Assembly: GCF_000626675.1 (NCBI RefSeq)
Contig: NZ_CP006842.1
Coordinates: forward strand, 186,001-250,000
DNA length: 64,000 bases
From: Corynebacterium glyciniphilum AJ 3170
Lineage (GTDB): Bacteria; Actinomycetota; Actinomycetes; Mycobacteriales; Mycobacteriaceae
Direction of reading: 5' to 3'
Shown piece by piece: positions 28,718-60,002 of the stretch. Below the pieces are notes generated by a model. That model ran no database searches, was not told the DNA's origin, and saw nothing but the letters and a program-made list of their open reading frames with translations. Position 1 is the stretch's first letter; every line of letters begins with the position of its first letter. The translations under genes and the position numbers were made by a program.

Positions 28718-28900
28718 TGCTCTCCCACGTTATACCTGTGGCGACCCCGGTCGCGAGCCCGCGGACGCTGTCGGGGCGGATCGACATGGACTCCAGACGC
28801 GCCTGCCAGCAAACCCCCAGGAACATGGTGATCTGTTCAACGTGACGGGGCGGGAATGGATATCGGGACCCGTGGCGTTAAAGTATGGACACAACAGATA

Positions 28901-28916
28901 GACAGATAAGTCTGTC
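28901..28916. promoter_or_regulatory. operator-like palindrome upstream of symporter
   Basis: GACAGA-TAAG-TCTGTC is a perfect inverted repeat about 80 bases before the symporter start, just downstream of TTAAAGTAT, which could be a -10 region. Its size suits a dimeric regulator. The rest of the 277-base interval between 28718 and 28994 shows no gene. Confidence 0.35.
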
Positions 28917-28994: not shown

Positions 28995-30431
28995 ATGTCG
29001 ACAACACAGGAACACCGGACCGGCCGTATACCCGGCTGGCTCACCGGGTTCGGAGCGCAGGTCATCGCCGGCCTCGTCATCGGGCTGATCCTCGGGTTCA
29101 TTGCCCGCGCCCAGGGAGCAGACCTCCCGGAGGACGACCAGAGCTGGCTCGGTACTCTTCTCGACGAGGTCGGGTCCACCTACGTCACACTGCTGAAGTT
29201 GATGATCCCGCCGTTGATCATCGCTGCGGTGATCACCTCGGTGGCGAACCTGCGCAAGGTCGCCAATGCCGCACGGCTGGCCATCAGCACATTGATCTGG
29301 TTCGCGATCACCGCCTTCTTCTCCGTGCTCGTCGGCATCGGGGTCGGACTCGTGATGAAGCCGGGTGAGGGGACCTCGGTGGACGCCTCCAGCGCTGCCG
29401 AGCCGTCCAGCTCCGGCTCCTGGCTCGGTTTCCTCGAGTCCATCGTCCCGGACAACATCCTGGGACTCGCCGCCTCCGCCAACTCGGACGGGGACATCGG
29501 ACTGAGCTTCAACGTGCTGCAGCTGCTGGTCATCTCCATCGTGCTCGGTGTGGCCGCGGTGAAGGCCGGCAAGTCCGCTGAACCGTTCCTGGCCGTCACG
29601 GAGTCGCTGCTCACCGTGGTGCAGAAGGTGCTGTGGTGGATCATCCGCCTCGCCCCGATCGGCACGGGCGCGTTGATCGGTCACGCCGTCTCCGACTACG
29701 GGTGGGACGCCCTGGGGTCGCTCGGTAAGTTCGTGCTTGCCATCTACATCGGCCTGGCGATCGTCATGCTCGTCATCTACCCGGCCGTGCTCGCGTTCAA
29801 CGGTCTGCCTGTGATCGGCTTCTTCCGTCGTGTGTGGCCGGTGACGTCCCTGGGATTCATCACCCGCTCCTCGATGGGCGTGATGCCGGTGACCCAGCGT
29901 GTCACGGAGCGTTCCATGGGTGTTCCCACCGAGTACGCGTCCTTCGCCGTGCCCCTGGGTGCGACCACGAAGATGGACGGTTGCGCCGCGGTCTACCCGG
30001 CGATCGCCGCCCTGTTCGTCGCCCAGTTCTACGGCATCGACCTCGGCTTTACCGACTACCTGCTGATCATCTTCGTGTCTGTGATCGGATCGGCCGCCAC
30101 TGCCGGTACCACCGGGGCTACCGTGATGCTCACGCTGACGCTGTCGACGCTGGGCCTGCCGCTCGCTGGTGTCGGCCTGTTGCTCGCCATCGAGCCGATC
30201 ATCGACATGGGGCGCACGGCCGTGAATGTCACCGGCCAGTCGTTGGCGGCGACCGTGGTCGCGAAGCGGGCCGGGATCTGGGACCGGGAGATCTGGGACG
30301 CCGCGCAGGAAGGCGGATTCGAAAGTGCCGCCGGGGAGGACAGCCACCGGGCGCATATCGACCAGGAGCCAGTAGGGGCTTCAGAGGAGAACGCGGTCAC
30401 CGACAGGGCCGATTCTTCCGTGCGGAGCTGA
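28995..30431 (+). CDS. dicarboxylate/amino acid:cation symporter (DAACS), 478 aa
   Basis: Eight hydrophobic helices plus re-entrant loops in the GltP/DctA fold. Characteristic segments: VPLGATTKMDGCAAVYPA (the NMDG-like region, here TKMDGC) and the helix 8 motif RTAVNVTGQSLAATVVAKR. It imports C4-dicarboxylates or acidic amino acids with Na+ or H+. The C-terminal ~40 residues are acidic and soluble. A paralogue, only distantly similar, lies at 40021-41253. Start ATG 28995 has a weak Shine-Dalgarno (CAGGTAAA). Confidence 0.9.
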   Translation: MSTTQEHRTGRIPGWLTGFGAQVIAGLVIGLILGFIARAQGADLPEDDQSWLGTLLDEVGSTYVTLLKLMIPPLIIAAVITSVANLRKVANAARLAISTLIWFAITAFFSVLVGIGVGLVMKPGEGTSVDASSAAEPSSSGSWLGFLESIVPDNILGLAASANSDGDIGLSFNVLQLLVISIVLGVAAVKAGKSAEPFLAVTESLLTVVQKVLWWIIRLAPIGTGALIGHAVSDYGWDALGSLGKFVLAIYIGLAIVMLVIYPAVLAFNGLPVIGFFRRVWPVTSLGFITRSSMGVMPVTQRVTERSMGVPTEYASFAVPLGATTKMDGCAAVYPAIAALFVAQFYGIDLGFTDYLLIIFVSVIGSAATAGTTGATVMLTLTLSTLGLPLAGVGLLLAIEPIIDMGRTAVNVTGQSLAATVVAKRAGIWDREIWDAAQEGGFESAAGEDSHRAHIDQEPVGASEENAVTDRADSSVRS

Positions 30432-45830: not shown

Positions 45831-45963
45831 GTCGTCCAGCCTGCCAGAGTGCTGGTTCAGGGGAGGGGCGCGTCCCGGTGTAGACCGCTTGGTTCGGTAG
45901 GATGGCCCCGATTAGCCCTGACCAGCCCACCGACCCGCCCCCGATCAGCCCAGGAGAGCAGAC

Positions 45964-47229
45964 ATGAGCAGCGACGATCAGTCCGGCCAGCCCAATGAGC
46001 ACGAAACGCGCGCTGACGCCGGTACCGCCGCCCGCCGTGCCGCAGCACTGCAGGCACGTCAGCGACTGACTGACGCCGCGGGTCGTCCGTTCGGATTCGA
46101 TACGAACGCCATCCATTCTGGTTATGAACCCGACGGACAGACCGGTGCCATCAACACCCCGATCTACGCGTCCACCACCTATGCACAGGACGGTGTCGCC
46201 CAGCTCCGCGGTGGGTTCGAGTACTCGCGGTGCGGCAATCCCACGGTCACCGCGCTGGAGGAGACCGTCGCGGCGCTGGAGGGGGCGAAGTTCGGGCGCG
46301 CATTCGCCTCCGGGATGGCGGCCACAGACACTGTCCTGCGTGCGCTGCTGCACCCGGGCGCTCACGTCATCCTCGGTAACGACGCCTACGGCGGGACGTT
46401 CCGACTGCTCGACACCACCTACCGTGACTGGGGCGTGGAGGTATCGGTCGTCGACACCGCCGACACCAGGCAGGTCGCCGATGCGTTGCGTCCTGACACG
46501 AAACTGGTGTGGCTCGAGACGCCCACCAACCCGCTGCTCGGCATCACCGACATTGCCGCCACCGCCGACGCCCTGAAGGACCACCCGGCCAAGCTCATCG
46601 TGGATAACACGTTCGCCAGTCCGTATCTGCAGCGCCCGTTGGCGCTCGGGGCGGACGTCGTGATGCACTCCACCACGAAGTACCTCGGCGGGCACTCGGA
46701 CGTGGTGGGCGGTGTCATCGTCACCGACGATGAGGATCTGGACGGTGAGCTCCTCTTCCTTCAGGGTGGTGTCGGTGCGGTGCCCAGTCCTTTCGACGCC
46801 TACCTGACCTACCGCGGTATCAAGACCCTCGGACTGCGTATGGACCGTCACTGCGCCAACGCGCAGGCCGTCGCCGAGTTCCTGGACGGGCGCCCTGAGA
46901 TCGCTCAGGTGCTGTACCCGGGGCTCCCCGGCCACACCGGGCACGATATCGCCGCCCGGCAGATGGACGGCTTCGGGGCCATGGTCTCCGTCCGGTTCGC
47001 CGGTGGTGAGGTACCTGCCCTGCAGTTCTGTGAGAATACCCGCCTGATCTGCCTGGCAGAGTCCCTCGGCGGTGTGGAGTCATTGCTGGAACACCCGGCG
47101 AAGATGACCCACCAGTCTGCCGCGGGGTCCGCTCTGGAAGTGCCGGACGACCTTGTGCGTATCTCCATCGGCATCGAGAACGTCGATGATCTTCTCGCCG
47201 ATCTCGCGCAGGCGCTGGACGCGCTGTGA
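45964..47229 (+). CDS. metB: cystathionine gamma-synthase
   Basis: 421 aa PLP-dependent Cys/Met metabolism enzyme. The Schiff-base Lys is in HSTTKYLGGHSDVVGG; YSRCGNPT and ASGMAATDTV bind PLP phosphate, and ETPTNPLL is conserved. The N-terminal ~35 residues are a polar extension. Condenses O-acyl-homoserine with cysteine to cystathionine; cystathionine gamma-lyase activity cannot be excluded by sequence. AGGAGAG before ATG 45964 and a TAGGAT -10 at about 45897 support the start. Overlaps the next gene by 4 bases. Confidence 0.88.
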   Translation: MSSDDQSGQPNEHETRADAGTAARRAAALQARQRLTDAAGRPFGFDTNAIHSGYEPDGQTGAINTPIYASTTYAQDGVAQLRGGFEYSRCGNPTVTALEETVAALEGAKFGRAFASGMAATDTVLRALLHPGAHVILGNDAYGGTFRLLDTTYRDWGVEVSVVDTADTRQVADALRPDTKLVWLETPTNPLLGITDIAATADALKDHPAKLIVDNTFASPYLQRPLALGADVVMHSTTKYLGGHSDVVGGVIVTDDEDLDGELLFLQGGVGAVPSPFDAYLTYRGIKTLGLRMDRHCANAQAVAEFLDGRPEIAQVLYPGLPGHTGHDIAARQMDGFGAMVSVRFAGGEVPALQFCENTRLICLAESLGGVESLLEHPAKMTHQSAAGSALEVPDDLVRISIGIENVDDLLADLAQALDAL

Positions 47230-49759: not shown

Positions 49760-51805
49760 CTACACCGAGGACACCGACGACACCGAGGACAGTGCTGATA
49801 CCGCTGCGGCATCTGTCTCCTGCAGCATGAGCGGATCAGTGCGCGGCATCGGGGAAATTGTCATGTCGGCGCGGACCTCCTGCAGCGGGATGCCCAGCAT
49901 GTGGACCCGCGGGTCCACGCTCCCGTCGACATGCACCAACCGTGAGGTGGTGAGGTCCACCTCCGGGGCTTTCGAGGTGATCTCGGAGGAGGTTTCCGCG
50001 CTGGAGAAGACGAACGGGCGCAGTCGTGCGTCACGCACCAGCGCAGCGGTGACGGGATCGGCGCTGTCGCGTGCGGACGGCTTGTGTAGCCAGGCGTCTA
50101 CCAGGGCAGTCGCCGCGACAGCGTCGTCGCCCGTGGATTCCGAGGACATGAGGAATGCCGGCGCCTCCGGGTCGACGACCACCGTGGGGTGACCGCCGAG
50201 GAAGCGGACGTAACCGGCGTCGACGAGACAGAGCAGCTCGGCGGTGCGGAACGCGGGTGGGCCGGAGCCGACCATCTGGCCGACACGTCGCAGTTCAGCG
50301 TAAGCGCCGCGCCGGGATTCCAGGGTGAAGCGTCCGGGCTGGTCGGCGACCTGGGCAGGTTTGCGGGCGGAACCGATGACCTGCAGCCCCGCCTTGACGG
50401 CAGAGTCGGTGCCGAGTGAGGCCTCGTGCAGGTCACGGGCGAGCCGGTCGCCGATGTGTGTGGTCAGCTCGTCGATGGTGGGCGTGGCGTCACCCTCCGT
50501 CGTCCGACGGTGGAGGTAGGCGGCGACCGGGTCCGCGAAACCGGGGATGTCGAAGCGCTCTGCGGCATGGGGCACCAGAGCGATCAGCGCGGGGTCGTTG
50601 TGCAGCATCCAGGGATCGTCGGAGGCATCGATCACAGCAGTGACATCGGCGATATCGGCGGCGTCTGCGAGTGCGGTGTCGCCAGCCGCATCACGCAGGA
50701 GGACGCGGTAATACGCCTCGTGGGCGTCGCGTAGCAGCGCGGGCCACAACCGTTCACCGAAGTCGATGGATCCTGCCGGGGCGTCGGTCGGTAGCGCGGC
50801 GAGTTCGGCTCGGAACCGGGGCATCCGTGCCGCGGGCGGCAGTGAATTGTAGACGGGTTTTGGCTGGTAGGGGTAGCCGTGGTGGGAGGAGACGACGAGG
50901 CGGGGTTCGCGTCCCGACGGTTCGTAGCGCAGGCCGGAGCGTGCGGACCCATCGGGCAGGAACCGTCCTCCGCGGTCGATGGTTACCATCGCCATAAGGT
51001 CGAACAATCCCATGCCGAGGCCGCGGACCACCACGTCCTCGCCGGCGGGAAGAGCATCGGCGTCCTGGTCGGCGGGGTTGCCCGGACGCACCCACACCAG
51101 GGCGGGGTAGTGCTCGACGGACTGGGCGGTGAACGTTTCCAGGGCGTCGGGTTCAGTGTCGGTCCATCCCAGCGCCAGGACGGTGGCGTCGGCGTCGATC
51201 ACGGTACCGTCCTGCAGTGTGATGCGGTCCCGGCCGGACGCATCGAGCGCCGTGATGTCGGTGGCGCGGGTGGTGTGGGTTTCCAGGACCATGCCTTCGG
51301 GGAGACGGGCGACGACCGTGTCGAAGACCCACTGCAGGTAGTGGCCGTAAAGGGCGCGCGACGGGTGCGATTCGGGACGTGATTCGGCAATCTCGGCGGC
51401 GAAGCCGTCCGGGACGGTGGCGGGGTGGGCGGAGAACAGCGTGGTTTTCGCCCCGGTCGGGTCGGCCCCTTCCGGTTCCTTCTCCAAGGCCTCGCCGCGC
51501 AGCAGGCGGATCCACTCGTACATGGTCGGTCCCTCGAACACCGGTGCGGTCACCGAGGAACCGGGTTCCGTGAACAGGGTGACGGCGTCGGCGAGGGTGT
51601 TCATGTACAGGGTGCGGGTCTGGTCGGTGCGCCAGATTCGGCCGGTACCGACGGAGACGTCGTCGATGATGTGCACGGTGACGGGGGTGGCGTGACTGCG
51701 GTCGCGCACCAGGGCGCTGAGTCGTTCGAGGACGGAGATGCCGCGTGGTCCGCCGCCGATGACGACGATGGTGGGGCCGGTGTTCCTGGTGTCGCTGGCG
51801 GTCAT
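49760..51805 (-). CDS. FAD/NAD(P)-binding protein (NAD_binding_9 type)
   Basis: 681 aa flavoprotein. The N-terminal Rossmann motif VIGGGPRGISVLERL is followed by WRTDQTRTLYMNTLAD, the usual signature of large PF13454-type proteins. A second dinucleotide-like region lies near ATVLALGWTD (~residue 215) and VVRGLGMGLFDL (~275). The C-terminus ends in SSVSSVSSV repeats. Enzymatic role unknown; related proteins are called lysine/ornithine-N-monooxygenase-like. The ATG at 51805 is preferred because TACCAT lies 7 bases before it. Divergent from the ABC importer operon, which hints at a shared role. Confidence 0.85.
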   Translation of the reverse strand: MTASDTRNTGPTIVVIGGGPRGISVLERLSALVRDRSHATPVTVHIIDDVSVGTGRIWRTDQTRTLYMNTLADAVTLFTEPGSSVTAPVFEGPTMYEWIRLLRGEALEKEPEGADPTGAKTTLFSAHPATVPDGFAAEIAESRPESHPSRALYGHYLQWVFDTVVARLPEGMVLETHTTRATDITALDASGRDRITLQDGTVIDADATVLALGWTDTEPDALETFTAQSVEHYPALVWVRPGNPADQDADALPAGEDVVVRGLGMGLFDLMAMVTIDRGGRFLPDGSARSGLRYEPSGREPRLVVSSHHGYPYQPKPVYNSLPPAARMPRFRAELAALPTDAPAGSIDFGERLWPALLRDAHEAYYRVLLRDAAGDTALADAADIADVTAVIDASDDPWMLHNDPALIALVPHAAERFDIPGFADPVAAYLHRRTTEGDATPTIDELTTHIGDRLARDLHEASLGTDSAVKAGLQVIGSARKPAQVADQPGRFTLESRRGAYAELRRVGQMVGSGPPAFRTAELLCLVDAGYVRFLGGHPTVVVDPEAPAFLMSSESTGDDAVAATALVDAWLHKPSARDSADPVTAALVRDARLRPFVFSSAETSSEITSKAPEVDLTTSRLVHVDGSVDPRVHMLGIPLQEVRADMTISPMPRTDPLMLQETDAAAVSALSSVSSVSSV

Positions 51806-51859
51806 GGGCACCATGGTATCGCCCGGTCCGGGCTGTGTTACTGTGGGCGCACCCTAGAA

Positions 51860-51877
51860 GAACAGACAGATCTGTTC
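51860..51877. promoter_or_regulatory. operator-like inverted repeat between FAD gene and ABC operon
   Basis: GAACAG-ACAGAT-CTGTTC: perfect 6-bp arms with a 6-base spacer. An extra TTCTGTTG half-site follows at about 51880. It lies 55 bases ahead of the first importer gene start and 28-45 bases into the divergent promoter region, and could control both. Regulator unknown. Confidence 0.45.
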
Positions 51878-51904
51878 AGTTCTGTTGAAAGCACTTTTTT
51901 GCTG

Positions 51905-53599
51905 ATGACGTTTCCTCTCTCCCCCGCGGCCCGCCCGCCACGGCGATCACTACGGCACGTAGTCGTCGCTGTCCTTGCCGCGGTGACCTCCGTCGCCGTG
52001 GCCGTAGGCATCACCGCCTGCGCTTCCTCCGACGGTGGACACCGGGACGCCGGTGCCCGTGAACTGGTCTACCTCGAGTCGCTCCCGTACAACTCGTTGT
52101 ACCCGCCGGCTGCCGGTTTCTATCCCAACGGTGGCATCCTCAACAACATCACCGACCGGTTGTTGTGGCAGGACCCGGACACTCTGGAACTGCACCCGTG
52201 GATCGCCACGGACCTGCCGCAGATCAACGACGACGCCACCGAGTTCACCTTCACGCTCCGCGACGACGTCACCTATTCCGACGGCACGCCGCTGACCGCG
52301 GAGAACGTGGTGCGCAACTTCGACCTCTACGCCCTCGGCGACCCGGACCGTGGGTTGAGCTCCTCGGAACAGATCAGCACCTATGAACGCGGTGAGGTGA
52401 TCGACGAGCACACCGTCCGTTTCCACTTCTCCGATCCCGAGCCCGGTTTCCCGCAGGCGACCAGCTCCTTCAACGCCGGCCTGCTTGCCGACGCCAGCCT
52501 GGAGCAGTCCGATGAGGGCTTCGCCCCGGGCAGTGCCACGGAGGTCATCGGTTCAGGCCCGTTCGTCGTCTCCGCCGAGCAACTCAACACCGAGGTCACT
52601 CTGGACGCCCGGGAGGACTACGACTGGGCGCCACAGGGGGTCGACCAGCAGGGAGCACCGCAGATCGACCGGGTCAGCGTGGTCATCACGCAGGAGGACA
52701 GTGTCCGTGTCGGAGGGCTGAAGTCGGCGCAGGGTGATGTTGCCCGGCAGATCGAGGCACCGGAGGAACAGCACCTCATCGACGACGGCATCGGTGTCCT
52801 CTCCGCCCCGACGAACGGGGTCAACAACCAGCTCGCCTTCCGGTTCCGGCATCCGCTGCTGTCGGATATCCGGGTACGCCAGGCGATCATCGCCGGAGTC
52901 AACCGGGACCGGGTTCTGAACTCGCTGTTCAGCGACTCCTACACCAAGGCCACGTCGGCCCTGGCCAGTACGGCCGCCGGCTACCGCGAGCAGAAGGACG
53001 CCTATGTCTTCGACCCTGACCGCGCCCGTGAGCTGCTTGACGAGGCCGGTTGGGTGCCGGGGCCGGACGGCATCCGGGTCAAGGACGGCGAGCGACTCAG
53101 CCTGACCGCCAATGACTCGGAGCAGCAGCCCCGCACCCGCGAGGTCATCACCATGGTTCAGGAGCAGTTGCGGGACATCGGGGTGGAGGTCTCCCTCTAC
53201 CCCGGCGACGTCGCCGCCCAGAAAGCGGCGCAGGTCAACCAGGACCTTATCCAGCTCAATGTGACGATGGTGGGCCGGGCCGATTACGACGTGATCAAGA
53301 GCCAGTACTACTCGCAGAACCGGAACCAACTGCTCAACTACGACACGGAGGACGAGTCGGTCGGAGACCCTGAACTCGAGGAACTCCTGCTCAAGGTGTC
53401 CGGCTCGGCGGATGAGGATGCCCGCGCCGCGGCCAGTGGCGACGTGCAGGACTACCTCACAGAGCAGGCCTACGTCCTGCCGTTCTTCGAGGAGCCGCAG
53501 GTCTACGGAGTGCAGGACTACGTGCACGGTTTCGCCACCGATCCGATCGGCCGACCCTGGTTCTATCCGGTGACGCTCGACCAGAACGAAGAGGGGTGA
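51905..53599 (+). CDS. family-5 ABC transporter substrate-binding lipoprotein
   Basis: 564 aa. Signal peptide with GITACASS as the lipobox region (Cys ~38). SBP_bac_5 landmarks: YPNGGILNNITDRLLWQDP, LRDDVTYSDGTPLTAENVVRNFD and VRQAIIAGVNRDRVL. Family members bind oligopeptides, opines or nickel chelates. It leads a five-gene operon. The set of neighbours matches the KPN_01854-type importers that travel with CMD/alkylhydroperoxidase proteins; this rests on memory of those families, not a search. Confidence 0.9.
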   Translation: MTFPLSPAARPPRRSLRHVVVAVLAAVTSVAVAVGITACASSDGGHRDAGARELVYLESLPYNSLYPPAAGFYPNGGILNNITDRLLWQDPDTLELHPWIATDLPQINDDATEFTFTLRDDVTYSDGTPLTAENVVRNFDLYALGDPDRGLSSSEQISTYERGEVIDEHTVRFHFSDPEPGFPQATSSFNAGLLADASLEQSDEGFAPGSATEVIGSGPFVVSAEQLNTEVTLDAREDYDWAPQGVDQQGAPQIDRVSVVITQEDSVRVGGLKSAQGDVARQIEAPEEQHLIDDGIGVLSAPTNGVNNQLAFRFRHPLLSDIRVRQAIIAGVNRDRVLNSLFSDSYTKATSALASTAAGYREQKDAYVFDPDRARELLDEAGWVPGPDGIRVKDGERLSLTANDSEQQPRTREVITMVQEQLRDIGVEVSLYPGDVAAQKAAQVNQDLIQLNVTMVGRADYDVIKSQYYSQNRNQLLNYDTEDESVGDPELEELLLKVSGSADEDARAAASGDVQDYLTEQAYVLPFFEEPQVYGVQDYVHGFATDPIGRPWFYPVTLDQNEEG

Positions 53600-53606
53600 C
53601 AGTCAC

Positions 53607-54557
53607 ATGGATTCGCTGACCCCCGGCGCCGTCCTGCGGCGCATCGGACAATCCCTGGTGGTGCTGTGGGCGACCTTCACACTCGCCTTCATCCTGCTCA
53701 CCGCATTGCCCGGGGACGCCGTGCAGACCCGCTACGCCAACCCGGAACTGGGTCTGTCCCAGCAGGAGATCGCGCAGATGCGCGAAGCCTACGGTGCGGA
53801 CGAGCCGGTGCTGACCCGCTACTGGAACTCATTGACCGGCATGCTGCGCGGGGATTTCGGGTTCTCGCTGGAGAACGGTACCCCGGTGTCCACCACCCTG
53901 GCCGAGGCGCTACCGAGCACGCTGACCCTGGCGCTCACCGGCTTCGTGCTCGCCGTGGTCGTCGCGGTGCTCATCGCCGTCCTGGCCACCTCCGGCCCCT
54001 TCGGCTGGATCCGGAGCGCGCTGCGCGCCCTGCCGCCGCTGTTCATCTCACTGCCGGCGTTCTGGCTGGGCATCATGCTCATCCAGACCTTCAGCTTCCA
54101 GCTGACCTGGGTCCCGGTGATCCACGCCAGCCCTGTCCAGGAGCTGATCCTGCCGTCGATCGCGCTGGCGCTACCCCTCTCAGCGCCGATCGCCCAGGTC
54201 CTGATCCGGGGGATCGACGATGCGACGCGACAGCCCTACGTCACCGTGGTGCGGGCCCGTGGCGCCGGGGAACAGTGGATCCTGTGGCGCAATGTGATGC
54301 GCAATGCCCTGCTCCCGGCTCTCACCATCGCCGGGGTCACGTTCGGCGAACTTATTGGCGGCGCGGTGATCACTGAAGCCGTGTTCGACCGCTCCGGTCT
54401 CGGCGCGGCCACGGTGGACGCGGTGTCCTACCGGGACACACCGGTCCTCATGGCCGTTGTTGTGCTCGCTGCCGCGGCGTTCATCCTCGTCAACCTCATC
54501 GTGGACCTGCTGTACCCGGTCCTCGACGCCCGACTGCGTAGGACGGTGACGGCATGA
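53607..54557 (+). CDS. ABC transporter permease, DppB type
   Basis: 316 aa with six helices: N-terminal helix (RRIGQSLVVLWATFTLAFILLTALPGD), an external loop with YGADEPVLTRYWNSL, and the EAA-like cytoplasmic loop (VTVVRARGAGEQWILWRNVMRNALLP). The start is 8 bases after the SBP stop and the end overlaps the next gene by 4 bases. Confidence 0.94.
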   Translation: MDSLTPGAVLRRIGQSLVVLWATFTLAFILLTALPGDAVQTRYANPELGLSQQEIAQMREAYGADEPVLTRYWNSLTGMLRGDFGFSLENGTPVSTTLAEALPSTLTLALTGFVLAVVVAVLIAVLATSGPFGWIRSALRALPPLFISLPAFWLGIMLIQTFSFQLTWVPVIHASPVQELILPSIALALPLSAPIAQVLIRGIDDATRQPYVTVVRARGAGEQWILWRNVMRNALLPALTIAGVTFGELIGGAVITEAVFDRSGLGAATVDAVSYRDTPVLMAVVVLAAAAFILVNLIVDLLYPVLDARLRRTVTA

Positions 54558-55363
54558 TGACTGCGACCTTACGATCTCTGCGTCCTGGCGTGTGGCTCTC
54601 CGGTGCCGTCGTGCTCATCGCCGTCGCCTGGGCACTGGTGCCCGGTCTGTTCGCGTCCGGCGACCCGCTCTCGTCCGGGGAGACCGCGCCGCTGCTTGCC
54701 CCCTCCGCCGAGCACTGGTTCGGCACGGACGCTGTGGGCCGTGACCTCTACACCCGCGTGGTGTGGGGTGCACGTCAGTCGCTGGCCGGTGCGCTGCTGG
54801 CCGTCCTCGTGGGCATGGTCGCGGGGTCGTTGTTGGGACTGCTCGCGGGTGCGCGCCGCGGCTGGCTCGACGCACTGGTCATGCGCATCGTGGACGTCCT
54901 GCTGTCCATCCCGTCGCTGCTGCTCAGCCTCTCCGTGATCATCCTGCTCGGCTACGGTACCTTCAACGCCGCCATCGCCGTGGGCGTCACCAACGTCGCC
55001 GTGTTCGCGCGGTTGGCCCGCTCACAGGTGCTCAGCGTCGCCGGCAGTGACTTCGTCGAGGCAGCCTACGGGTCGGGCGGCACCGGTATGCAGGTCCTGT
55101 GGCGGCACATTCTGCCGAACTCGCTGACCCCGGTGATCGCGCTGGCGGCCCTGCAGTTCGGCAGCGCGATCCTCCAACTGTCCACCCTCGGCTTCCTGGG
55201 TTACGGGGCGCCGCCACCGACACCGGAGTGGGGGCTGATCATTTCCGAAGGACGTGACTTCATCGCCACGTCCTGGTGGCTGACGGTCCTGCCCGGCCTG
55301 GCGATCGTCCTGGTCGTCCTGGCCACCAACCATCTCAGCCAGGCGCTGCGGAAGGAGTCCTGA
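54554..55363 (+). CDS. ABC transporter permease, DppC type
   Basis: 269 aa, starting by ATGA overlap with the partner permease. HWFGTDAVGRDLYTRVVWGARQSL and the EAA loop (FVEAAYGSGGTGMQVLWRHILPNSLTPV) are those of DppC/OppC. The N-terminal helix precedes the conserved region, and it forms the pore with the preceding permease. Confidence 0.94.
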   Translation: MMTATLRSLRPGVWLSGAVVLIAVAWALVPGLFASGDPLSSGETAPLLAPSAEHWFGTDAVGRDLYTRVVWGARQSLAGALLAVLVGMVAGSLLGLLAGARRGWLDALVMRIVDVLLSIPSLLLSLSVIILLGYGTFNAAIAVGVTNVAVFARLARSQVLSVAGSDFVEAAYGSGGTGMQVLWRHILPNSLTPVIALAALQFGSAILQLSTLGFLGYGAPPPTPEWGLIISEGRDFIATSWWLTVLPGLAIVLVVLATNHLSQALRKES

Positions 55364-55364
55364 C

Positions 55365-57086
55365 ATGAGCGAGCAGAAAGACAGGCAGGACAGGATGGAC
55401 TGGGACGACGGGTCGTGGCACCCCGACTCCGCCCCCGAATCCGGCTCCGGTGGACGCCGGGACGATTCCGAGGCCCCGTTGCTGGAGATCCGGGATCTGG
55501 CCGTGTCCTACCGCACGCGCCGTGGCGATGTCCACGCCGTGAAGGACGTCAACCTCACCGTCCGCCGCGGTCGGGTGACCGCCATCGTCGGCGAATCCGG
55601 TTCCGGCAAGTCGACTTCGGCGATGGCAACACTCGGCCTTCTGCCCGCCACCGCCACCGTCAGCGGCGAGATCCTGCTGGAGGGACGCAGTCTGCGCGAC
55701 CTCGGTCGGCGGGAGTGGCGCATGATCCGCGGCCGTCGCATCGGGCTGATCCCGCAGGACCCCAACAACTCGCTCAACCCGGTGAAGACGATCGGGGAGT
55801 CCGTGGGCGAGGGGCTGCGCATCCACCGGCGCGGCAACCGTACCGCGCGCCGGGCGAAGGTCGTGGAGCTGCTCGAGACGGTCGGCATCGACAATCCGGA
55901 GCTGCGCTACACCCAGTACCCGCATGAGCTTTCCGGCGGGATGAAACAGCGGGCGTTGATCGCCGCCGCTCTCGCCCTGGAGCCGGACCTGATCATCGCC
56001 GATGAGCCGACCAGTGCCCTGGACGTCACGGTGCAGCGCACGATCCTGGACCTGCTGGACCGCATGCGGGCCGACCTCGGCATCGGCGTCCTGTTCATCA
56101 CCCATGACCTGGCGGTGGCCGGCGACCGGGCCGATGAACTGGTCGTGATGCGTTCCGGCGAGGTCCGGGAGGATGGTCCGACCGACCGCGTTCTCACCGA
56201 GCCACGGGACGATTACACACGTCGTCTCCTGGCGGACGCTCCGTCTCTGGTCAGTGCTGTGGAGGCCGCGAGCTACCGCGATGGCGTCCCCGCGGAGAGC
56301 AGGAGCCCGCTGCTGCAGGTCACCGGGCTGCGTCAGGAGTTCGGCTCCACGCTGGCCGTGGACGACGTGTCCTTCTCTGTCTTGCCGGGTACCACGCACG
56401 CCATTGTCGGGGAGTCGGGGTCAGGGAAGTCCACGGTCGGTCGCGCGGTGACTGCCTTCCGCCGTCCGACCTCCGGTGAGATCCTGCTCGGCGACACCCG
56501 GGTGGACGAGCTGGATGTGAGGGGACGCCGTGAACTGCGGCGGCGTGTGCAGATGGTCTACCAGAACCCCTACAGTTCGCTGGATCCCCGACAGAGTATC
56601 GGCAGTATCGTCGGCGAGCCGCTGCGGAACCTCTCCGACCTGTCGCGGACAGAGATCCGTAGCAGGGTCGACGAGATTCTCGACCGGGTTGCGCTGGGTT
56701 CCGACATGACCGACCGGCGCCCGGCGGAGCTTTCCGGTGGGCAACGCCAGCGCGTCGCCGTGGCCCGCGCGCTGATCCTCGACCCGGATCTCGTGGTCCT
56801 CGACGAGGCGGTGTCCGCCCTGGATGTCACGGTGCAGGCGCAGATTCTGCACCTGCTTGATGAACTGCAACGGGATCTCGGGTTGACCTATGTCTTCATT
56901 TCCCACGACCTGGCCGTGGTCCGCGAGATCTCCGACACCCTGTCGGTGATGTCCGGGGGACGCCAGGTGGAAACTGGTCGTACCGAGGACATCTTCGAGC
57001 ATCCGACCAGTGAGTTCACCACCCGACTCCTCGACGCGATCCCGGGGCGGCGCTACCGCTCCGGAGGGCTTAACCTGGGACTATGA
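55365..57086 (+). CDS. fused double ATP-binding protein of the importer
   Basis: 573 aa, two DppD/DppF-type cassettes in one chain. First: [36 protein letters not shown]. Second: [36 protein letters not shown], in which the second Walker B has DEAVSALD. The N-terminal ~40 residues are acidic and disordered. The start lies one base after the permease stop; the end overlaps the next gene by four bases (ATGA). Confidence 0.95.
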
Positions 57087-58408
57087 GCGACAGCAGCGGA
57101 ACAGACAGCACAGACATCATCGATTTCCTCGCCGGGATTCACGCCGGCGAGCACGTTGCCGACCTGCGGCGGAACCGCACGCAGGCGCAGACCAATGCAC
57201 AGCACAGCTTCCGGGTACTGCTGGAAGCGGGGGACGCCGACGGGGACAGTGATGGTGGCTTCACCGACACGGAGCGCTACGTTGTCGCCGCTTTCGTCGC
57301 CGGGCTGCACCAAGGGCGCGGTGTGGCCTTCTACACCGACCTGCTCGGTGACGTCGCCGACACTGCGGTCGTCGACGCGGTGACGGAGTCCGTCGACGCC
57401 GGACTGACCGTCGGACCGTACGGCACCTACCGCGAACCTGACCTGGTGGGCGAGTCTGTCGGTGGGCCGGAGTTCACAGTGGACCCTCGCGTGCGGGGCG
57501 TGCTCGGTGAGAAGCTTGCCGCAGCCCTGGAATTCGCCCACCTGCTGGTCTTTCACCCGCGGGACAGCCGTCCGGAACGGCTGGCACCACTGGCCTGGTG
57601 TTGGTGGACGCCGCGGCAGGTCGTGAGCCTGGCGCAGCTGATCTCCTTCCTGTGTTTCCAGCTGCGGGCGGCGGAGGGGCTCGCCGCGGTGAAGGCAGCG
57701 GACTCGACGCATGCACCTTTAGGCGACAGCAGCGTTGTCCGCCGCCCTGGCACCGCACAGGAGCCCGGAGGGTTCCCGCCACTCACCGGCGGTGCGTTCG
57801 ATGTCCTGAGCTACCCGGACCTGCACCGTCCTACCCGGTTCGTCAGCCACAGCCTGGGCTGGCAGCCGTGGGTGCCGCCGGTGGAGGAGAAAGAACTCAC
57901 CGACCGGCAGCGCACCGCCCTGGTCGACCCTATGCGTGCGAAGTCCGCCTACTTCCGCTTGCTCGCCCACGATCCTGATGCGCTCGAAGCCAGGACGCTG
58001 ACGGACAAGGACATCTTCTACAACGTCACCGACGGCGCCGGACGCGCCGAGCGTGAGATCTCCGCGGCGGTGACCAGCCGCTACAACGGCTGCGTCTACT
58101 GTGCGTCGGTGCACACCGGACGCGCGCTGCAGGAATCCACCGGCCGCGAAGAGGACGTCCAACGGCTCTGTGACGAGGGCGCCGGCGCCGACCTAGGCTC
58201 TGAGATGTGGAACGCCATCGCCGAGGCGTCCGTGGCGCTGACCTCGACTCCCGTCAGTTTCGGCGTCGACCATGTCCGTCGTCTCCGCGCCGCTGGGCTG
58301 GACGATGGCTCGGTCATCGACGTGATCAACGGGGCCGCCTTCTTCAACTGGGCGAACCGGCTGATGCTGTCCCTCGGGGAACCGGAGCTTCCGGCACGCT
58401 TCCGGTAG
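57083..58408 (+). CDS. fusion of CMD-like and alkylhydroperoxidase-like domains
   Basis: 441 aa. Residues ~1-215 form a carboxymuconolactone-decarboxylase-like domain without the CxxC pair. Residues ~245-441 are a second AhpD-like domain with the redox pair in YNGCVYCASVHTGRALQ, preceded by a conserved SYPDLHRPTRFVSHSLGWQPWVPP segment. In other bacteria two separate genes (CMD, Avi_7170-like; peroxidase, Avi_7169-like) appear beside this importer type; here they are one chain. Translationally coupled to the ATPase gene. Catalytic role is unproven. Confidence 0.85.
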   Translation: MSDSSGTDSTDIIDFLAGIHAGEHVADLRRNRTQAQTNAQHSFRVLLEAGDADGDSDGGFTDTERYVVAAFVAGLHQGRGVAFYTDLLGDVADTAVVDAVTESVDAGLTVGPYGTYREPDLVGESVGGPEFTVDPRVRGVLGEKLAAALEFAHLLVFHPRDSRPERLAPLAWCWWTPRQVVSLAQLISFLCFQLRAAEGLAAVKAADSTHAPLGDSSVVRRPGTAQEPGGFPPLTGGAFDVLSYPDLHRPTRFVSHSLGWQPWVPPVEEKELTDRQRTALVDPMRAKSAYFRLLAHDPDALEARTLTDKDIFYNVTDGAGRAEREISAAVTSRYNGCVYCASVHTGRALQESTGREEDVQRLCDEGAGADLGSEMWNAIAEASVALTSTPVSFGVDHVRRLRAAGLDDGSVIDVINGAAFFNWANRLMLSLGEPELPARFR

Positions 58409-58425
58409 GGCGTACCGTGGTCGCC

Positions 58426-59409
58426 ATGACAGAATTTCCCACGACTTCCCGCATCGCCATTCCCGGCACCGATCTGGAGATCACCCCGCTGAACCTCGGC
58501 GGGAACACCTTCGGCTGGACATCGGACGTCCAGGAGTCCTTCGACGTGCTGGATGCGTTCCTCGCCGCGGGCGGAAACTTCATCGACACCGCCGACATGT
58601 ACTCCCAGTGGGGCGAGGGGCACTCCGGCGGCGAGTCCGAGACCGTACTCGGCCAGTGGTTCGCCGACCGTGGTAACCGCGACCAGGTGGTGCTGGCGAC
58701 GAAGGTTGGTGCCATCCAGAGTGCGGCCGGGCTGGCCCATGACACCGTGGTCGCCAACCTCGACAGGTCACTGGAACGGCTGCAGACCGACCGGGTCGAC
58801 CTTTACTACTACCACTACGATGACGAGTCCGTGGATATCGCCGATCAGGTCCGTACTGCCGCTGAACTGGTCGATTCCGGCAAGGTACGCTATATCGGCC
58901 TGTCGAACTACTCCACCGACCGCATGCGTGAGTTCTTCGAGACGGCACGTGAACTGGAGCTCGACCACGCCATCCCGTTGGCCATCCAGCCGCAGTACAG
59001 CCTGCTCGCCCGGTCGGACTACGAGGACGGCTACATGCAGGTCGCCGAGGAATACGGCGTCGGCGTGTTCAGCTACTTCTCCCTGGCGTCGGGCCTGCTG
59101 ACCGGTAAGTACCGGAGCCGTGAGGATCTGGAGGGCGTTGCCCGCGAGGGGCAGACCGGCGGCTACTTCGAGAAGGACGGTAACGATAGGGACCCCTTCA
59201 CCGTGGTCGATGCCGTGGTGACGGTCGCCGAAGCCCATGACACGGAACCGGCGTCGGTGGCCTTGGCCTGGCTGCTGGCCAAGGGGGTGACCGCCCCGAT
59301 CGCCTCAGCCCGCACCCCGGAGCAGGTCGCACCGCTGATCGCCGCGACGACACTGCAGCTCAGTGACGAGGAGATCGCCGATCTCGACGCCGCGTCCGAC
59401 GGTTTCTGA
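58426..59409 (+). CDS. aldo/keto reductase, 327 aa
   Basis: NADPH-dependent AKR: NFIDTADMYSQWGEGHSGGESE has the catalytic Asp/Tyr, LATKVG the Lys and YYYHYDD the region that normally carries the His (here Y-H-Y). The C-terminal ASARTPEQVAPLIAAT binds the cofactor. TACCGT lies 7 bases before ATG 58426, which suggests that it is transcribed independently of the importer operon. An in-frame extension upstream lies inside the preceding gene and is unlikely. Confidence 0.92.
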   Translation: MTEFPTTSRIAIPGTDLEITPLNLGGNTFGWTSDVQESFDVLDAFLAAGGNFIDTADMYSQWGEGHSGGESETVLGQWFADRGNRDQVVLATKVGAIQSAAGLAHDTVVANLDRSLERLQTDRVDLYYYHYDDESVDIADQVRTAAELVDSGKVRYIGLSNYSTDRMREFFETARELELDHAIPLAIQPQYSLLARSDYEDGYMQVAEEYGVGVFSYFSLASGLLTGKYRSREDLEGVAREGQTGGYFEKDGNDRDPFTVVDAVVTVAEAHDTEPASVALAWLLAKGVTAPIASARTPEQVAPLIAATTLQLSDEEIADLDAASDGF

Positions 59410-59423
59410 GTAGAATCCGGGGC

Positions 59424-60002
59424 ATGAACACGCATGCTCCGGACAAGAACGCAGGTGGTCCTCAGGGTCTGCCGGTGATCCGCCCTGAGGCCGCCGACGG
59501 AGGGGACGCCGGAGAGATCCGGTCGCTCACCGCCGCCGCATTCGATGGCATCGAACAATCTGACGGGCATGAGCCTGCGATCATCGACGCACTCCGTGAG
59601 GCGGACGCGCTGACCCTGTCACTGGTCGCGGTGCGTTCGGGGTGGGTGATCGGGCACATTGCCGCGTCGCCGGTGACCCTGACCCGTGCCGACGGCGAGG
59701 TTCCCGGCCAGTGGTTCGGGCTTGGTCCGTTGTCCGTGTCTCCCGCCCACCAGGGGGAAGGAATCGGCGCAGCTCTGATGCGGTCAGCGCTTGAGCTCCT
59801 CGACACGGAGGAGGGGGCCACCGGGGCTGTCCTCCTCGGCGATCCGACCTACTACGACCGTTTTGGATTCGAGGCGCGTGAGGGGCTCGTCATGGACGGG
59901 CTGCCGGAGGAGAGCTCCGCCTACTTCCAGGCATTACGGTTGGACGGGGACCCGTCCTATCCACAGGCGGTGGTGAGCTACCACCCCGCGTTCGGGGCCT
60001 AG
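59424..60002 (+). CDS. GNAT-family N-acetyltransferase
   Basis: 192 aa. Acetyl-CoA site LSVSPAHQGEGIGAALMRSALELL (motif A) and the YYDRFGFEAREGL motif B are clear. The position of the motifs and length match YhbS-like acetyltransferases. TAGAAT lies 7 bases ahead of ATG 59424 and 1 base after the stop of the reductase, giving a leaderless start. Substrate unknown. Confidence 0.9.
   Translation: MNTHAPDKNAGGPQGLPVIRPEAADGGDAGEIRSLTAAAFDGIEQSDGHEPAIIDALREADALTLSLVAVRSGWVIGHIAASPVTLTRADGEVPGQWFGLGPLSVSPAHQGEGIGAALMRSALELLDTEEGATGAVLLGDPTYYDRFGFEAREGLVMDGLPEESSAYFQALRLDGDPSYPQAVVSYHPAFGA

Follow-up and report, generated by a model that had tools for sequence, protein, structure and literature searches.

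The locus at positions 49760–58408 of the 64,000-nucleotide stretch of Corynebacterium glyciniphilum AJ 3170 analysed here (the window) carries an ABC importer operon of a known type that ends in an ordinary fusion of a CMD and an AhpD-like domain. A divergently transcribed flavoprotein gene is genuinely linked to it, and a role of the locus in sulphur supply is likely. The boxes found in relatives, the regulon data from C. glutamicum and the nearby metB gene point in this direction. With a probability of about 0.5, importer, FAD-dependent oxygenase and AhpD-like domain together form a sulphur-scavenging unit under McbR-type control.

Gene order and linkage of the flavoprotein

The genes and the candidate operator considered here are the following:

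45964..47229, + strand: metB, cystathionine gamma-synthase (PRK07811, 647.5 bits, cut-off 513); possible co-regulated neighbour
49760..51814, − strand: FAD/NADPH flavin monooxygenase gene; product homologous to L-aspartate N-hydroxylase (8cp2) and probably the oxygenase of the unit
51863..51878, no strand: candidate McbR-operator-like box CAGACAGATCTGTTCA, 7/10 to TAGAC-N6-GTCTA, between the FAD and SBP genes
51905..53599, + strand: substrate-binding protein (SBP), lipoprotein-like (TIGR04028, 807 bits, cut-off 468.5)
53607..54557, + strand: ABC permease 1 (PF00528/PF19300)
54554..55363, + strand: ABC permease 2 (PF00528)
55365..57086, + strand: double ABC ATPase with two PF00005 (ABC_tran) stretches
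57083..58408, + strand: fused CMD (TIGR04029)–AhpD-like (TIGR04030) protein, both domains over cut-off
58420..59409: AKR gene, 11 bases after the fused gene
59424..60002: GNAT gene, 14 bases after the AKR gene

Every gene lies where the preliminary description had placed it. Coordinates and strands bear out the divergence of the FAD gene from the importer operon, as well as the tight coupling within the operon, where SBP, permeases, ATPase and fused gene follow one another at 7, −4, 1 and −4 bases. Profile matches likewise confirm the families claimed for the double ATPase and the two-domain CMD–AhpD protein. The palindrome noted in the shared promoter (GAACAGA-N4-TCTGTTC, 51860–51877) is present and overlaps both the CAGACAGATCTGTTCA box and the spot where relatives have TAGAC-N6-GTCTA, but it means little by itself because the listing for 221 bases contains eight such short inverted pairs.

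The genus sample comprised 151 Corynebacterium genomes, including that of the window; TIGR04028 exceeds its cut-off in 68 of them and TIGR04030 in 63. Linkage was counted in 68 other loci, namely those of the 67 other genomes with TIGR04028 and that of G063, which has a broken SBP gene, each with an SBP match above 300 bits. The FAD gene is divergent and less than 800 bases from the SBP gene in 66 of these 68 loci, although the counts are not independent because many loci come from close relatives. It is thus not the case that the FAD gene seldom adjoins the operon in relatives, and its proposed role as a partner of the importer stands. Of the two exceptions, G023 has no FAD match and G150 has the SBP gene at a contig start. 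The fused gene lies downstream of the importer in 59 of the 68 loci; three of the nine misses are contig ends, and in another (G008) the gene is found elsewhere in the genome.

The association is regular, not obligate. The fused gene was not found in four related genomes (L110, L112, L115, L120). Three of them have a second FAD paralogue (48–49% identical) beyond the ATPase (L110 2966–4927, L115 13681–15627, L120 7143–9119), in the place occupied by the fused gene in other genomes. In L089, the importer is missing, and the FAD gene and a fused-type gene are directly divergent. No fused-gene match was found near 16 of the 18 importer-less FAD loci fetched, which represent part of the FAD-bearing genomes without the importer. 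The AKR gene is near the locus in only a handful of close relatives. In L085, L087 and L088, it directly adjoins the FAD gene, and the importer and fused gene that lie between the two in the window are absent, as if lost or gained in one step.

In the profile search, the FAD protein matched only PF13454. Its nearest solved homologue is the aspartate N-hydroxylase 8cp2, and it probably serves as the oxygenase of the unit. This homology, and the standing of the protein in the place of a luciferase-like monooxygenase, had been missed in the preliminary description. Like the FzmM-type L-aspartate N-hydroxylase of Streptomyces sp. V2 (8cp2/8cp5), it possesses the whole fold of two dinucleotide-binding domains and a helical domain and keeps R13, the catalytic N62 and R412. 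Unlike that enzyme, it is encoded with an importer and does not keep R276, R409, N413, R416 and R577. The aspartate-holding R276, N413, R416 and R577 correspond to A329, K485, Q488 and M656 in a phmmer alignment that is uncertain in its C-terminal part. Further down in the fold comparison come additional N-hydroxylases, interspersed with flavin-containing monooxygenases and disulphide reductases. The FAD protein P0194 of C. glutamicum is 95% identical to that of G089, in which the FAD gene adjoins the SBP gene. Among the matches listed in the literature searched, mostly non-subscription, no description of the FAD partner was found.

The fused CMD–AhpD-like protein

TIGR04029 covers residues 11–202 of the fused protein (177 bits, cut-off 100.75) and TIGR04030 residues 249–434 (274 bits, cut-off 233). 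E325, C337-x-x-C340 and H344, all in the C-terminal domain, are invariant in 60 of 60 aligned sequences; a glutamate is also counted in the AhpD catalytic motif. According to the available part of PMC3141380, this motif is Cys-X-X-Cys with a nearby histidine, an arrangement that the C-terminal domain of the fused protein contains. The N-terminal domain has no conserved cysteine, those at positions 173 and 191 being present in one and 12 of the 60 sequences, respectively. A structure model was obtained with a pLDDT of 92.6. Foldseek returned no match at E ≤ 0.001, the best matches being single AhpD-like domains (E 0.0023).

The domain fusion had been regarded as a new feature, a view that is not tenable. 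Full-length fused proteins occur in Corynebacterium, Brevibacterium, Leucobacter, Kineococcus, Rothia and others, where they are named "alkylhydroperoxidase domain protein" or "CMD domain protein/alkylhydroperoxidase domain protein" (best 120 of 633 matches). The closest named relative in the genome collection is from C. glyciniphilum (91%). Both domain matches are present in 58 of 88 Corynebacterium loci, and 54 of these 58 have them in one open frame. Outside the genus, four of 76 named loci are fused and 72 split, and among eight same-class loci six are split; of the other two, which yielded no score, one (G384) is fused by family scan.

Other proteins with two AhpD-like domains are known. 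The available part of a review (PMC11429811) describes one from C. ureicelerivorans whose cysteines are confined to the C-terminal domain, like the conserved cysteines of the fused protein, to whose family it may belong. E. coli YciW differs in its cysteine spacing and was rejected as close kin, its matches being weak and sub-cut-off only. The bacterial Sestrin-like alkylhydroperoxidases share the two-domain layout, and Foldseek matched Sestrin2 weakly (E 0.032).

Candidate McbR operators and the sulphur regulon

The McbR consensus is TAGAC-N6-GTCTA in the portions available of PMC2723105 and PMC9210681. Among 67 FAD–SBP intervals, that of the window included, the best box agrees with this consensus at 10 of 10 positions in 32, at nine in 19, at eight in 10 and at seven in six. 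A best box of 9 or 10 is thus present in 51 of 67 intervals versus 0.4% of shuffled ones; scores of at least 8 and at least 7 are reached in about 7.6% and about 47% of shuffles, respectively. In the window and its two nearest relatives, the best box is just CAGACAGATCTGTTCA, at 7/10, a non-significant level attained by about 47% of the shuffles. When a PWM was trained on 61 other sites, leaving out those of the window and these two relatives, it ranked CAGACAGATCTGTTCA as the second-best position in the 64 kb window. Rank 1 is the McbR-like box TAGACAGATAAGTCTG at 28899–28914, which precedes by 96 bases a dicarboxylate/amino-acid symporter gene (28995–30431), the same kind of gene as the C. 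glutamicum McbR/CysR target cg2810. Rank 4 is a box at 45881–45896, 83 bases upstream of metB. A metB box of at least 8 was counted in 34 of 36 loci tested (raw count with no separate shuffle control), and metB lies within 5 kb of the FAD gene in 29 of 68 loci.

Across the genome of the window, YAGAC-N6-GTCTR with at most one mismatch is not enriched (237 places versus 384 for the reversed control). Of the 17 places listed with zero mismatches, about ten are, by inspection, near sulphur-type genes, such as taurine-like ABC genes, a symporter, two SBPs, a CysW-like permease and a TauD-like dioxygenase. NtaA-type and other luciferase-like oxygenases are also among these genes; the rest of the places are near nothing evident, some boxes lie inside crude ORF calls, and several of the family matches are below curated cut-offs. 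MetQ and MetX genes are near hand-picked one-mismatch places. A box of at least 9 is present in only three of the 18 importer-less FAD loci; therefore, the FAD protein must also function by itself or be controlled differently.

The same genome has a second cluster (G000:C1:3132867–3141982; L045 10868–19983) with paralogous SBP, permeases and ATPase, an FAD paralogue and two luciferase-family proteins, an NtaA/DmoA-type monooxygenase and a short one. An McbR-like box is found upstream of its SBP gene (L046 124), with a zero-mismatch YAGAC-N6-GTCTR place at 3142123. Two of seven such second clusters have a box of at least 9 in the 450 bases examined, the L045 box being outside the fetched stretch.

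In C. glutamicum, cg2678-74 is listed among McbR regulon genes in the available text of PMC2580772, and the section of PMC2807442 at hand marks cg2674, cg2675, cg2677, cg2678 and metB as McbR targets in a table; the symporter gene cg2810 is also listed under McbR. By product names, cg2678–cg2674 resembles the window operon in its periplasmic subunit, permease, duplicated ATPase and CMD protein, and the C. glutamicum control genome, like the window, matches TIGR04030. The accounts of cg2678–cg2674, as far as available, make no mention of an FAD partner, and the comparison is one of product names. The induction of cg2678 in the part available of PMC6892785 is not sulphur-specific, because it occurred under total starvation and was nearly absent in a (p)ppGpp-free strain. 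From the available passages of PMC11266056, a strain lacking cg2674–cg2686 besides cg2663–cg2673 grows better in orange-peel medium. An excerpt of PMC7194016 reports that Klebsiella KPN_01858 changes under iron limitation.

On the Allorhizobium ampelinum S4 plasmid (L247 868–16583), the genes flanking the TIGR04028 operon encode a taurine importer and SsuD-like and SfnB-like proteins. The idea that such a sulphur island regularly adjoins the module was rejected, since relatives of SfnB-like or TauA proteins are near only three of 76 named loci.

Mutually exclusive oxygenases in the sampled loci and the proposed function of the module

The window operon has the same arrangement of SBP, two permeases, ATPase, CMD and AhpD-like parts as the KPN_01854/KPN_01858/Avi_7169/Avi_7170-type operon (TIGR04027–TIGR04030). 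In the latter, the importer genes are followed by a gene for a luciferase-like monooxygenase (LLM) and separate CMD and AhpD genes, whereas the window has no LLM, a CMD–AhpD fusion and a divergent FAD monooxygenase. The order in A. ampelinum S4 is SBP, permeases, ATPase, FMN-dependent LLM, CMD and AhpD. Its plasmid pAtS4e presumably carries the locus behind the Avi names.

In the samples searched, the LLM and FAD oxygenases are mutually exclusive. By tblastn with a TIGR04027 protein (552 bits, cut-off 412.9; LLM counted above 150 bits, FAD above 80 bits), the LLM is present in 73 and the FAD protein in none of 76 named loci outside Corynebacterium, which were taken as the top 80 of 402 ranked by similarity to the window fused protein, less four from Corynebacterium. 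The LLM was found in none of 88 Corynebacterium loci, and genome-wide TIGR04027 exceeds its cut-off in none of the 151 Corynebacterium genomes, the best match in the window genome reaching 82.6 against 412.9 bits. Nine of 296 genomes in the class sample match TIGR04030 at 1e-20, the window genome included, and six of the other eight have the LLM in the cluster. Besides the window genome, five same-class genomes from one family and two genera are over the TIGR04030 cut-off; all have a clustered LLM, and none has an FAD match genome-wide (FAD was sought in seven of the eight). The number of independent events is small, as the named loci are dominated by Bradyrhizobium and Rhizobium and these five genomes represent one family.

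Two genomes count against strict exclusion. G028, a Corynebacterium, encodes a TIGR04027-like protein close to an SBP paralogue (180 bits, below cut-off), the one match below 1e-40 among the 151 genomes, and in G187 a clustered LLM is accompanied by a distant FAD homologue (34%) at another site in the genome. G384 speaks for exclusion: no LLM match was found in its stretch of 19.9 kb, of which about 7 kb hold genes for an FMN reductase, an FAD homologue (34%), an importer of the FecCD type and a fused CMD–AhpD protein that falls just short of both cut-offs. Together with a gene for a LysR-type substrate-binding domain protein, they make up one cluster (L244 8113–16387).

If the locus scavenges sulphur, shortage of sulphur amino acids would cause an McbR-type repressor to leave the shared candidate operator. 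An organosulphur compound would then enter through the importer; given that the SBP is of the dipeptide/nickel type, it probably resembles an amino acid or a peptide. In the cytosol, the FAD/NADPH monooxygenase would oxygenate this compound. The CxxC motif of the AhpD-like domain may reduce peroxide leaked by the flavin, or an oxidised thiol or sulphur product, and the released sulphur would feed cysteine and methionine synthesis. The importer with redox handling proposed in the preliminary description is supported; the peroxidised or thiol-bearing small molecule suggested there as the substrate would be one candidate. The N-hydroxylase homologue would take the oxygenase position in Corynebacterium that the FMN-dependent TIGR04027 LLM has elsewhere. 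An AhpD-like protein may accompany two unrelated flavin oxygenases because it copes with peroxide or the oxidised sulphur product. A further, quite tentative idea is that a fixed import/AhpD module has an interchangeable oxygenase slot, that an FzmM-type flavin N-hydroxylase was drawn into sulphur scavenging by Corynebacterium as a substitute for the LLM, and that the two enzymes, though unrelated, act alike on one and the same imported sulphur compound. No description of such a swap was found among the matches listed in the literature searched, mostly non-subscription.

The locus might instead serve peroxide or thiol stress, with the CMD–AhpD protein as the main actor (an AhpD-type reductant), the importer supporting redox buffering with cyst(e)ine-like thiols or peptides, McbR control reflecting thiol demand and the FAD protein acting as an auxiliary NADPH oxidoreductase. 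The invariance of E325, C337, C340 and H344 in all 60 sequences agrees with this, as do reports available in part: cg2674 is upregulated with sod, tpx and cys genes in a rel mutant (PMC1578569), the deletion is said to raise NADH/NAD+ (PMC11266056), and a title and citing sentence in PMC11266056 tie C. glutamicum ahpD to the H2O2 response, a phenotype that fits stress defence too. Such a function would leave unexplained why a flavin oxygenase, of two unrelated kinds, stands beside the importer and CMD/AhpD genes in most loci, and we consider it unlikely. Amine or nitrogen catabolism or detoxification, with N-hydroxylation of an imported amino acid, peptide or phosphonate and an indirect sulphur link, would suit the homology to aspartate N-hydroxylase, the retention of R13, N62 and R412 and the N-hydroxylases in the lower fold-comparison rows, mixed though these are with flavin-containing monooxygenases and disulphide reductases. 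The loss of the aspartate-holding R276, N413, R416 and R577 and the sulphur signal of the operator boxes and the C. glutamicum regulon make it an improbable account. That the operon encodes an ordinary importer of dipeptides, nickel or metallophores whose neighbours are unrelated is far less probable still. The double ATPase exceeds the NikD, NikE, CntD and CntF cut-offs, and SBP and permeases resemble Nik/Dpp/Cnt members below cut-offs; against this, the SBP passes the TIGR04028 cut-off and no Nik/Dpp/Cnt one, and the linkage is conserved in 66 of 68 loci.

TIGR04027–TIGR04030 are families named only by locus tags. For them, the oxygenase exclusion, combined with the boxes and the regulon data from C. 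glutamicum, narrows "function unknown" down to a few possibilities that growth and enzyme tests can address in an organism with easy genetics. Sulphur scavenging by the unit would also point to a catabolic role of a flavoenzyme family so far associated with the biosynthesis of nitro compounds and the making of natural products.
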